Positions 44 to 3,738 of a stretch of 5,427 nt of DNA are shown in pieces. The DNA comes from Lautropia sp. (GTDB taxonomy: Bacteria > Pseudomonadota > Gammaproteobacteria > Burkholderiales > Burkholderiaceae_E): positions 1 through 5,427 of the forward strand of contig JACCRJ010000484.1 of the NCBI GenBank assembly GCA_013813615.1, written 5' to 3'. The position numbers and the translations under genes were made by a program. Every line of letters starts with the position of its first letter. Within the stretch, counting starts at the first letter, position 1. The notes below the pieces were generated by a model. The model was not told where the DNA came from, made no database searches, and saw only the letters and a program-made list of their open reading frames with translations.

Positions 44-74
44 GGGTGGTGACGGTGGATTGACGGCGAGCGGC
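44..74 (+). repeat. Left arm of the closing stem (terminal inverted repeat)
   Basis: Positions 44-68 pair with 256-280: 22 Watson-Crick pairs, two G-T wobbles (47/277 and 56/268) and one A-C mismatch (59/265). After an A-G mismatch (69/255), 70-74 pairs perfectly with 250-254. The arm contains TGACGG twice (50-55 and 61-66), spaced 11 bp apart. Confidence 0.75.
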
Positions 75-110
75 GCCTCGGGCGAGCCGCGGTGCGTTCG
101 GTGGCGCGGG

Positions 111-150
111 TATCCGTTGGGCACGGCACTGCCGTGCCCTCAAACGGATA
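111..150. repeat. Hairpin A of the structured element
   Basis: The outer stem is 111-118 with 143-150 (8 bp, TATCCGTT). Bases 140-142 (TCA) bulge on the 3' side. The inner stem is 119-127 with 131-139 (9 bp, GGGCACGGC), closing on the triloop ACT. All pairs are Watson-Crick. Confidence 0.8.
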
Positions 151-189
151 GCGACCGCTTGTCGTGCCCCGCACGACAAACCCGGTCGC
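151..189. repeat. Hairpin B of the structured element
   Basis: The outer stem is 151-157 with 183-189 (7 bp, GCGACCG). An asymmetric internal loop has one base on the 5' side (158) and ACC (180-182) on the 3' side. The inner stem is 159-167 with 171-179 (9 bp, TTGTCGTGC), with triloop CCC. All pairs are Watson-Crick. It abuts hairpin A directly. Confidence 0.8.
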
Positions 190-211
190 GGCCTGCGCCA
201 CCGGACCGCAC

Positions 212-247
212 CGCGGGTACCGGCGCGACGCGCCGGTGAAGCCCGCG
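212..247. repeat. Hairpin C of the structured element
   Basis: The outer stem is 212-217 with 242-247 (6 bp, CGCGGG). An asymmetric internal loop has T218 on the 5' side and GAAG (238-241) on the 3' side. The inner stem is 219-226 with 230-237 (8 bp, ACCGGCGC) with triloop GAC. The plan repeats that of hairpins A and B with different bases. Confidence 0.75.
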
Positions 248-249
248 AA

Positions 250-280
250 GCCGCGCGCCGTCAACCCGCCGTCACCGCCC
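250..280 (-). repeat. Right arm of the closing stem (terminal inverted repeat)
   Basis: This is the reverse-complement partner of 44-74. Read inward on the minus strand it carries the same two TGACGG motifs at the same 11-bp spacing. It ends 38 bp before the pilU stop codon. No convincing target-site duplication flanks the pair. Confidence 0.75.
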
Positions 281-318: not shown

Positions 319-1518
319 TCAGACCAGGTCGAGATGCCCGATCCCGGTATTCACGTCCCGCTTGACCCGGGTCCCGTTCAGCTTGATGTTCAGCCTGAGA
401 TCGTTCACCGAGTCGGCGTTGCGAAGGGCATCCTCGTATCCGATGTGCCCCTGCTCGTACAGGTCGAAGAGGTGCTGGTCGAAGGTCTGCATGCCGAGTT
501 CGCGCGACTTCTTCATGATCTCCTTGATCTCGGAGACGTCGCCCTTGAAGATCAGGTCCGATACCAGCGGCGAGTTGATCATCACCTCGACCGCGGCTAC
601 CCGGCCCTTCCGGCCCTCGATCGGAATCAGCCGCTGGGAGATCAGCGCCTTCAGGTTCAGCGACAGGTCCATCAGCAGTTGCTGGCGGCGCTCTTCGGGG
701 AAGAAGTTGATGATGCGGTCCAGCGCCTGGTTGGAACTGTTGGCATGCAGCGTGGCCAGGCAGAGGTGGCCGGTTTCCGCGAAGGCCACCGCATGGTCCA
801 TCGTCTCGCGGTCCCGGATCTCGCCGATCATGATCACGTCGGGCGCCTGACGCAACGTGTTCTTCAGCGCAATCTCCCAGCTCGCCGTGTCGACGCCGAC
901 TTCGCGATGGGTGACGATGCAGTTGCGATGCGGATGGACGTATTCGACCGGATCCTCGATGGTGACGATGTGGCCATAGCTGTTCTCGTTGCGGTAGCCG
1001 ATCATGGACGCGAGGGTGGTCGACTTGCCCGAGCCCGTGGCGCCGACCATGATGATCAAGCCGCGCTTGGTCATCGACAGCTCCGCCATGACTGGCGGAA
1101 GGCGCAGTTCGTCGAACTTGGGGATGTTGCTCTGGATCACCCGCAGCACGATGCCGATCCGGCCCAGCTGCGTGAATGCGTTGACGCGAAAGCGCCCGAT
1201 GCCGCCGGGGCTGATGGCAAAGTTCAGTTCCTTGTTGGCCTCGAACTCGGCCGCCTGGCGGTCGTTCATCAGTGCGCGCGACAGCTCGACGGTGTGCTGC
1301 GCGGTCAGCGGCACGTTGGAGACCGGCATCAGCTTGCCGTCGACCTTGATGGCGGGCGGAAACTCGGCAGTCAGGAAGAGGTCCGAGCCCTTCTTCGCGA
1401 CCATCAGGCGCAGCAGGTCGTGCAGGAACTTCGATGCCTGCTCGCGCTCGAGCGACGCGGGTCTGGCAGCCGTGGCAGCGCCAGGTGCGGCGGTGTTGGC
1501 ACTGTCGGCGATGAACAT
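319..1518 (-). CDS. pilU: Type IV pilus retraction ATPase PilU (PilT-like)
   Basis: This is a 399-residue cytoplasmic hexameric ATPase of the secretion/pilus GspE-PilT family. With PilT it powers pilus depolymerisation and twitching. Visible motifs are Walker A GATGSGKST at 159-167 (K165), the Asp box IEDPVEYVH at 187-195, a Walker B-type strand VIMIGEIRD with E233, and the His box ETGHLCLATLH at 248-258 (H251, H258). It lacks the AIRNLIRE motif of true PilT and instead has PLVSDLIFKGDVSEIKEIMK at 317-336 followed by LGMQTFDQ, which is typical of PilU. The ATG at 1518 is preceded by a good AAGGAA ribosome site. It gives an Ala-rich extension of about 22 residues before the usual N-terminal region (LEREQASKFLHDLL), where no alternative start codon lies. 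It follows pilT by 80 bp on the same strand, so co-transcription is likely. PilU proteins usually depend on PilT for retraction; that is family knowledge. Confidence 0.95.
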   Translation of the reverse strand: MFIADSANTAAPGAATAARPASLEREQASKFLHDLLRLMVAKKGSDLFLTAEFPPAIKVDGKLMPVSNVPLTAQHTVELSRALMNDRQAAEFEANKELNFAISPGGIGRFRVNAFTQLGRIGIVLRVIQSNIPKFDELRLPPVMAELSMTKRGLIIMVGATGSGKSTTLASMIGYRNENSYGHIVTIEDPVEYVHPHRNCIVTHREVGVDTASWEIALKNTLRQAPDVIMIGEIRDRETMDHAVAFAETGHLCLATLHANSSNQALDRIINFFPEERRQQLLMDLSLNLKALISQRLIPIEGRKGRVAAVEVMINSPLVSDLIFKGDVSEIKEIMKKSRELGMQTFDQHLFDLYEQGHIGYEDALRNADSVNDLRLNIKLNGTRVKRDVNTGIGHLDLV

Positions 1519-2832: not shown

Positions 2833-3675
2833 ATGAACGGCAATTCCGCGTTGGAGCAGCGCTACCTTCAGGTCAAGACTCGGATCAGACGCGCCGCACA
2901 GGCCGCCGGCCGGAACCCGGACGGCATCCATCTGCTGGCCGTCAGCAAAACCTTTCCCGCCGGCAGCATCGCCGCACTGGCCGCCATCGGGCAACTTGAT
3001 TTCGGCGAAAACTACCTGCAGGAAGCGCTCGGCAAGATGGCGGCGCTCGCCCATCTTCGGCCACACTGGCCGCTCGGGGGCGCGCCGGTCGATGGCCGGC
3101 AACAGATGCCGGTTCTACGGCCGGACGGGCTGCGGGATGTATCCCTGGACGGGCTGCTGGAAACATTGCCGAACGAACTGGAGCCGGGCCTGCAGTGGCA
3201 CTTCATCGGTCCCATCCAGTCGAACAAGACCCGCAAGATCGCCGAGGCGTTCGACTGGGTGCAATCAGTGGGCGAGGAGCGAATTGCTCGCAGACTTTCC
3301 GAGCAGCGACCCGCCCACCTGCCGCCGCTCAATGTCTGTATCCAGGTGAACGCGTCGGGTGAGCCGACCAAGAGCGGCTGCAGTCCCGATCAGGCGGATG
3401 CGCTGGCCCCTGCGGTGGCGGAATTGCCTAACCTGCGGCTGCGCGGTCTGATGGCGATACCCGAGCCGACCGAAGACGAAGCGGTTCAGCTGCGCCGCGC
3501 GGGCGAGATGCGGGGGTTGTTCGAGCGGGTCCGGGAGAGCCTGGGTGCCGGCGCGGTGGCTGGTCACTTCGACACCCTGTCGATGGGAATGTCAGCGGAC
3601 CTGGAGTCGGCCATCGCGCAGGGCTCGTCCCTGGTGAGGGTCGGCTCGGCGTTATTCGGGGAGCGGAAGATCTAA
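2833..3675 (+). CDS. yggS: YggS/PROSC-family PLP-binding protein with an insertion
   Basis: This 280-residue cytoplasmic protein is of the YggS/PLPBP family, which binds pyridoxal phosphate and keeps PLP and amino-acid pools balanced without a known catalytic reaction. The fold is a TIM barrel like the alanine racemase N-domain. Visible hallmarks are LLAVSKTFP with the expected PLP-binding Lys39, FGENYLQEAL at 57-66, WHFIGPIQSNKTRK at 122-135, the strand VCIQVNASGEPTKSG, LRLRGLMAIP, and HFDTLSMGMSADLESAI followed by LVRVGSALFG, the phosphate-binding end of the barrel. Family members are usually about 225-240 residues. The excess here is an insertion between FGENYLQEAL and WHFIG. The ATG at 2833 is chosen because it matches the family N-terminus and lies downstream of the likely promoter. 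Its ribosome site is weak (AGG only 2 bases away). In-frame ATGs at 2773 and 2602 are less likely, the latter overlapping pilT. No frameshift or stop is present. Confidence 0.93.
   Translation: MNGNSALEQRYLQVKTRIRRAAQAAGRNPDGIHLLAVSKTFPAGSIAALAAIGQLDFGENYLQEALGKMAALAHLRPHWPLGGAPVDGRQQMPVLRPDGLRDVSLDGLLETLPNELEPGLQWHFIGPIQSNKTRKIAEAFDWVQSVGEERIARRLSEQRPAHLPPLNVCIQVNASGEPTKSGCSPDQADALAPAVAELPNLRLRGLMAIPEPTEDEAVQLRRAGEMRGLFERVRESLGAGAVAGHFDTLSMGMSADLESAIAQGSSLVRVGSALFGERKI
3052..3186 (+). other. In-frame insertion within yggS (residues about 74-118)
   Basis: Usual YggS proteins have roughly 8-12 residues between the FGENY-containing helix and WHFIG. Here there are about 45, so about 35 are extra. 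The segment is rich in Pro, Gly, Arg and Asp and contains two DGL repeats (residues 98-100 and 106-108). In the barrel fold it should lie in the loop before a core strand, on the side away from the PLP pocket; this is inferred from the family fold. Exact borders cannot be fixed without an alignment. Confidence 0.7.
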
Positions 3676-3706: not shown

Positions 3707-3738
3707 CAAGCATCCAGGCAGAAGCCTGGTCATGCTTG
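3707..3738. terminator. Hairpin between convergent yggS and rpsT
   Basis: CAAGCAT plus CCAGGC (3707-3719) pairs with GCCTGG (3724-3729) and ATGCTTG (3732-3738). That makes 13 bp in all, with a TC bulge and loop AGAA. It sits in the 64-bp gap and ends one base before the rpsT stop codon. Its position between convergent genes suggests a bidirectional terminator or 3'-end stabiliser. Neither strand has a T-run after the stem, so it is not a canonical intrinsic terminator. Confidence 0.55.

Follow-up and report, generated by a model that had tools for sequence, protein, structure and literature searches.

Two described classes of sequence come closest to the foldback analysed here. The bacterial MITEs and small palindromic repeats (Correia/NEMIS, RUP, RPE and YPAL), as treated in the portion of PMC2229807 drawn on here, are short, non-coding, intergenic and built on inverted repeats, and they would yield a long stem-loop if transcribed, as would the element at positions 44-280. 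The element differs from this group, as portrayed in the same portion of that source, in being GC-rich and found as a single copy, in having no target duplication that we could find, and in exceeding the <200 bp stated there; it also lacks TA ends, a trait that it has in common with YPAL. The second class comprises the quasi-palindromes left by template switching, for which the part of PMC8794818 used here reports that one template-switch event is able to create perfect stems. The element resembles these in its close, near-perfect reverse-complement stems, each of a kind that can be made in a single copying event, and differs from them, again as far as that part of the source goes, in nesting several stems over 237 bases and in being known here without an ancestral sequence.

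The foldback is an intergenic quasi-palindrome and thus belongs to a kind of sequence already known. Our tentative reading, to which we assign a probability of about 0.4, is that it is a single-copy, nested quasi-palindrome that would have arisen, likely by repeated template switching, and would act as a hairpin block at transcript 3′ ends.

Setting and architecture of the foldback

The window, that is, the whole stretch of DNA analysed (5,427 nucleotides), is the entire contig C255 of a Lautropia sp. assembly of 3.28 Mb in 720 contigs that is 82% complete. It carries pilU and pilT, both encoding PilT/PilU-family ATPases, a YggS-family gene, rpsT and a partial murJ. The closest named matches of the PilU protein come from Zeimonas arvi and two Lautropia assemblies (79-85% identical), and PilU proteins of the same genus are about 77-85% identical to that of the window. 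The foldback lies between the left contig end and pilU, whose 3′ end faces it, with a gap of 38 bases to the pilU stop codon (Table 1). It begins 43 bases in from the contig end; the contig stops at base 1, and the left-hand gene lies beyond it, so that this gene and pilU may or may not converge. Queries of the own genome with the neighbouring gene from two relatives came back empty, a result without weight as a negative.

Elsewhere in the window, the YggS-family protein (2836-3675) is matched by NCBIfam in two pieces, and it apparently has, relative to what we take to be the family norm, some 40 extra residues ahead of WHFIGPIQSNK. A small nested hairpin with a 2-base bulge on its 3′ side and without a T-run occupies 3708-3737, where the YggS gene and rpsT converge.

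Table 1. Parts of the nested foldback, the adjacent gene, and palindromes upstream of pilU in relatives
Feature	Position	Strand	Remarks
Whole nested foldback	44-280	.	101 pairs on + strand
Closing stem, left arm	44-74	.	15+9+5 pairs with 250-280
Closing stem, right arm	250-280	.	partner of 44-74
Closing-stem inner extension, weak	77-83	.	1+5 pairs with 241-247 across internal loops
Partner of 77-83	241-247	.	weak inner extension of closing stem
Central 25-pair stem, left arm	87-111	.	10+15 pairs, includes G-U
Central stem, right arm	191-216	.	one-base bulge at 206
Hairpin 1	112-149	.	7-pair outer stem; 9 pairs and 3-base loop (119-139); 140-142 unpaired
Hairpin 2	151-189	.	7-pair outer stem; 9 pairs and 3-base loop (159-179); 158 and 180-182 unpaired
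Hairpin 3, side hairpin	218-238	.	9 pairs (8 on - strand), 3-base loop
pilU, PilT/PilU-family ATPase	319-1518	-	profile matches; 3′ end faces foldback
pilU-upstream palindromes	L020:2886-2970, L027:2898-2984, L036:2897-2984, L039:2901-2986		Duganella and Rugamonas relatives

The computed fold consists of a 29-pair closing stem around a 25-pair central stem that forks into two hairpins, plus a side hairpin. On the + strand its pairs engage 202 of the 237 bases (95 Watson-Crick and 6 G-U pairs), and on the - strand 98 pairs, 3 of them G-U, engage 196. All terminal loops have 3 bases on either strand, the terminal stems counting 9, 9 and 9 pairs on the + strand and 8, 11 and 9 on the - strand; on the + strand, hairpins 1 and 2 each leave three 3′-side bases unpaired above their 7-pair outer stem. 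In the preliminary description, which had been made from the letters of the window, this stem was given 29 pairs over 31 positions, and our recount reproduces that figure; its three hairpins are present, its estimate of about 190 paired bases is borne out by the counts on both strands, and its internal stem exists, at 25 pairs instead of the 19 it had proposed. Its view that the region has no coding potential agrees with the lack of a Pfam match for the two overlapping ORFs tested.

Strength of the fold and search for relatives

Pairing by chance is excluded for 44-280. Folded as RNA, the + strand reaches -195.9 kcal/mol as compared with a mean of -124.6 (sd 4.9) for shuffles that preserve dinucleotides (z -14.5), the - strand reaches -186.0 kcal/mol (z -11.8), and the + strand folded as single-stranded DNA reaches -120.6 (z -13.6); in each of the three comparisons 0 of 200 shuffles were as good, so that the fold does beat such controls on either strand, as the preliminary description had it. 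The element has 90 pairs within helices of at least 7, where 500 shuffles average 24.1 and reach at most 52; the longest single helix, of 15 pairs, falls inside the shuffle range (mean 9.4, maximum 16; 500 shuffles). Because the longest helix alone does not go beyond the shuffles, the excess over chance must reside in the sum and nesting of the helices.

Within its own genome, as sampled by a scan of 103 of the 720 contigs (474 kb, 14.5% of the genome), the 240-nt segment holding the element is the strongest of all, with a z of -6.3 relative to the line of energy on GC content and a runner-up at -3.9. Strong local foldbacks are in themselves not new. When 110 pilU loci were scanned in 200-nt segments, which are out of register with the 237-base element, 16 segments in 9 loci, all from Massilia, Duganella, Rugamonas and Collimonas, outranked its best segment, and with the same-genus sample G015 included, a terminator-like hairpin of the latter, at -5.11, nearly equalled the element, at -5.15. 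A scan for inverted repeats over about 1.54 Mb, made up of own contigs, the same-genus sample and the pilU loci of relatives, with some places counted twice, returned 24 places; four of these have an overall length of at least 120 nt (this element, L226, L021 and L068), and among the four the interior of the element is the fullest, with 82% of its bases paired and -0.75 kcal/mol per base.

BLASTN of the own assembly (82% complete) returned the element itself and one 48-base, 81% match of chance size; the own-genome match, on contig C154, has in common with the element a 13-base hairpin tip, of which there are 2 occurrences in the sampled 474 kb. Across 74 genomes of the family, with at most 10 candidates scored per genome, so that diverged copies may escape, short matches appeared in 14 of the 73 others (18 places, E 2e-5 to 1e-3). 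Across 399 genomes of the order, with two candidates scored per genome and a cut-off of 1e-6, under which diverged copies may likewise escape, one other genome (G442) matched, at 83% over query positions 165-215 (E 5.1e-7). We refolded the 20 places concerned (18 in the family, one in the order, one in the own genome), adding 120 flanking bases per side where the sequence allowed, and they gave -0.27 to -0.63 kcal/mol per base as against -0.83 for the element. As none comes near its fold strength, these matches were rejected as relatives and are taken as GC-rich chance; the match in G442 is the least safe of them to dismiss.

A structure (covariance) model of the core (R1), which contains one sequence entered twice and spans 87-216 only, found the window and nothing else among the 74 family genomes, in a search of at most 46 candidates per genome under stricter filters that diverged copies may escape. 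Run over 81 sources, it gave 26 matches up to E 10, the window's own among them. One L021 foldback scored 33.8 bits (E 0.0012), and L032 matched weakly, at E 0.15 and 0.19; we read these as likeness of structure only. No Rfam family was matched at its gathering score, the best being CRISPR-DR20 with 25.6 bits against a gathering score of 42, in keeping with the earlier statement that no recognised family applies; searches of phages and of plasmids gave no convincing relative of the element. Among 105 other distinct regions downstream of pilU, one, from Massilia (L068), carries a strong foldback; the window ranks first at a z of about -8.0, followed by L068 at about -5.4, and BLASTN finds no similarity between the two foldbacks beyond 10-19-base matches (E 0.64). 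The same-genus loci examined downstream of pilU have different, weaker folds, and conservation of the paired positions, to which the preliminary description had looked, was not seen elsewhere in the relatives searched.

Origin and possible function

The case for a template-switch origin is one of inference from three features taken together: near-perfect stems, short loops at the hairpin tips, and the failure of the searches to turn up a convincing relative. As DNA was replicated, repeated rounds of hairpin-templated copying in this lineage could have built the nested stems one upon another. The two strands fold to nearly identical structures, with G-U counts that favour neither clearly, and a palindrome at the DNA level fits because both strands fold nearly alike. 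The single copy found and the absence of the element from the kin examined agree with this origin as well. Set against a random process of this kind is the uniformity of the hairpin tips on the + strand, where stem and loop may show more order than a random process would leave, the - strand tips being uneven in stem length. We consider very unlikely a new kind of composite DNA element, with uniform modules of 9-pair, 3-base-loop hairpins inserted into one another, which an enzyme of the lineage would produce or recognise in the form of folded single-stranded DNA.

The foldback may have consequences for transcription. A transcript running into it from either strand would acquire a very stable, bulky hairpin block at its 3′ end, which might end read-through or shield the pilT-pilU mRNA from 3′ decay. 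The evidence from gene ends for such a role, in counts derived from fractions, is mixed. In the same-genus sample G015, hairpins of at least 7 pairs occur at 10 of 29 convergent ends, 11 of 59 codirectional ends and 2 of 26 divergent gaps, those at gene ends being mostly without a T-run, and the excess at convergent ends leans towards a 3′-end role for such hairpins; in the own sampled contigs the corresponding counts are 2 of 17, 4 of 46 and 2 of 13, and convergent ends are not clearly richer. An intrinsic terminator was considered and set aside, as no stem followed by a U-tract occurs anywhere in 1-400.

Among the alternatives, a structured non-coding RNA or 3′ UTR element, lineage-specific and kept by selection, would account for a very stable fold that is more stable on the + strand than on the -; the G-U pairs, twice as many on the former, are too few to decide. 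We nevertheless regard this as doubtful, in view of the lack of an orthologue in the same-genus and family regions examined downstream of pilU, of a structure-model match in the 73 other family genomes, of an Rfam match at gathering score, and of any promoter-like or terminator-like site in 1-400; moreover, its uninterrupted 15-pair stems are longer than the runs of 2 to 10 consecutive pairs described as typical for RNA in the part of PMC8794818 used here. A mobile element of MITE-like or foldback type, represented today by one copy and formerly moved in trans by a transposase absent or unassembled here, is unlikely. It would agree with the terminal inverted repeat, the intergenic position without coding signal, the presence of another inverted-repeat element in the own genome (L226:280-411) and the seemingly dispersed foldbacks of relatives, and copies may have been lost from an assembly that is 82% complete and split into 720 contigs. 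Yet that assembly holds no second copy, and 14 of the 73 other family genomes offer short, chance-like BLASTN matches only, with no structure-model match there. The best flanking direct repeat, 6 nt long, does not abut the arms, and among 1000 random site pairs 9.4% do equally well. The transposase search covered the Y1 family; the assembly has two such genes, and their flanks, as far as examined, carry no similar hairpins. The ends of the element also lack a 5′-TA, although some such elements lack it too, according to the portion of PMC2229807 drawn on here. Both candidates had been put forward in the preliminary description, and neither gained support: the MITE-like one has a single copy, no abutting target duplication and no matching Y1 transposase ends, and the RNA has no orthologue among the 105 pilU-downstream regions or by the structure model. 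REP/BIME repeats moved by a RAYT require many short palindromes with a common foot, which are absent from the 474 kb sampled; hairpin tips (at least 7 pairs, loop of 3-5) are not recurrent there, the two commonest appearing 2 times each.

A DNA structure read by a protein as a cruciform or as single-strand hairpins, for instance a recombination or regulatory site, was likewise among the candidates of the preliminary description and appears improbable. Loops of 3 bases are favourable in DNA hairpins, and they occur throughout the element on either strand, alongside its strong fold as single-stranded DNA; against this, the assembly has neither an integron integrase over the cut-off nor a reverse transcriptase, and no second site of such strength exists in the 103 own contigs scanned. 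An integron attC site was rejected, TIGR02249 scoring 60.8 bits against a cut-off of 265, as in 14 control genomes, in the 82%-complete assembly, and so was a retron non-coding RNA, with no PF00078 match in the same assembly. An artefact of assembly or amplification would be in line with the proximity of the element to the contig end, and we judge it highly improbable: the arms differ at several positions, the nested, branched helices are probably unlike a simple snap-back chimera, and strong folds (z below -2) occur in 2.6% of 151 contig-end windows as compared with 2.0% of 6334 interior ones.

If the foldback is a by-product of copying, neither selection nor mobility is needed for large, branched foldbacks to form, a warning to RNA searches that rely solely on folding energy. 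Should it instead prove to move, or to be recognised in folded form as DNA, it would represent an element outside all families in the libraries searched.

Foldbacks elsewhere in the genome and in relatives

Several other foldbacks came to light in the course of the scans. In Massilia sp. HP4, a 156-nt foldback (L068:4138-4293, z -11.6) stands directly after the pilU stop codon. Massilia horti has two large ones, L021:879-1250 and L021:4626-4730, with common CGTAGGGTGCGCACCTGTGCGCACGCGGT-like arms in part and differing interiors; the arms of the former match perfectly over 163 bases or more, and this foldback may be an artefact or stem from a recent inverted duplication. These Massilia foldbacks are long and have internal structure, like the element of the window, but their similarity to it amounts to 10-19-base matches only (E 0.64).

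Relatives in Duganella and Rugamonas carry a long, almost perfect palindrome immediately upstream of pilU and, judging by position, beyond the pilT end. The four examples in Table 1 have common outer ends, GGGGTCA[G/A]GTC, and a common central ACACGGCCTCTGC, and differ in between; a palindrome at another place, L025:178-251, has only the outer ends in common with them. On another contig of the own genome (C303), the MITE-like L226:280-411, of 132 nt with 26-base inverted repeats (25 Watson-Crick pairs), interrupts a reading frame whose product resembles a LysR regulator.
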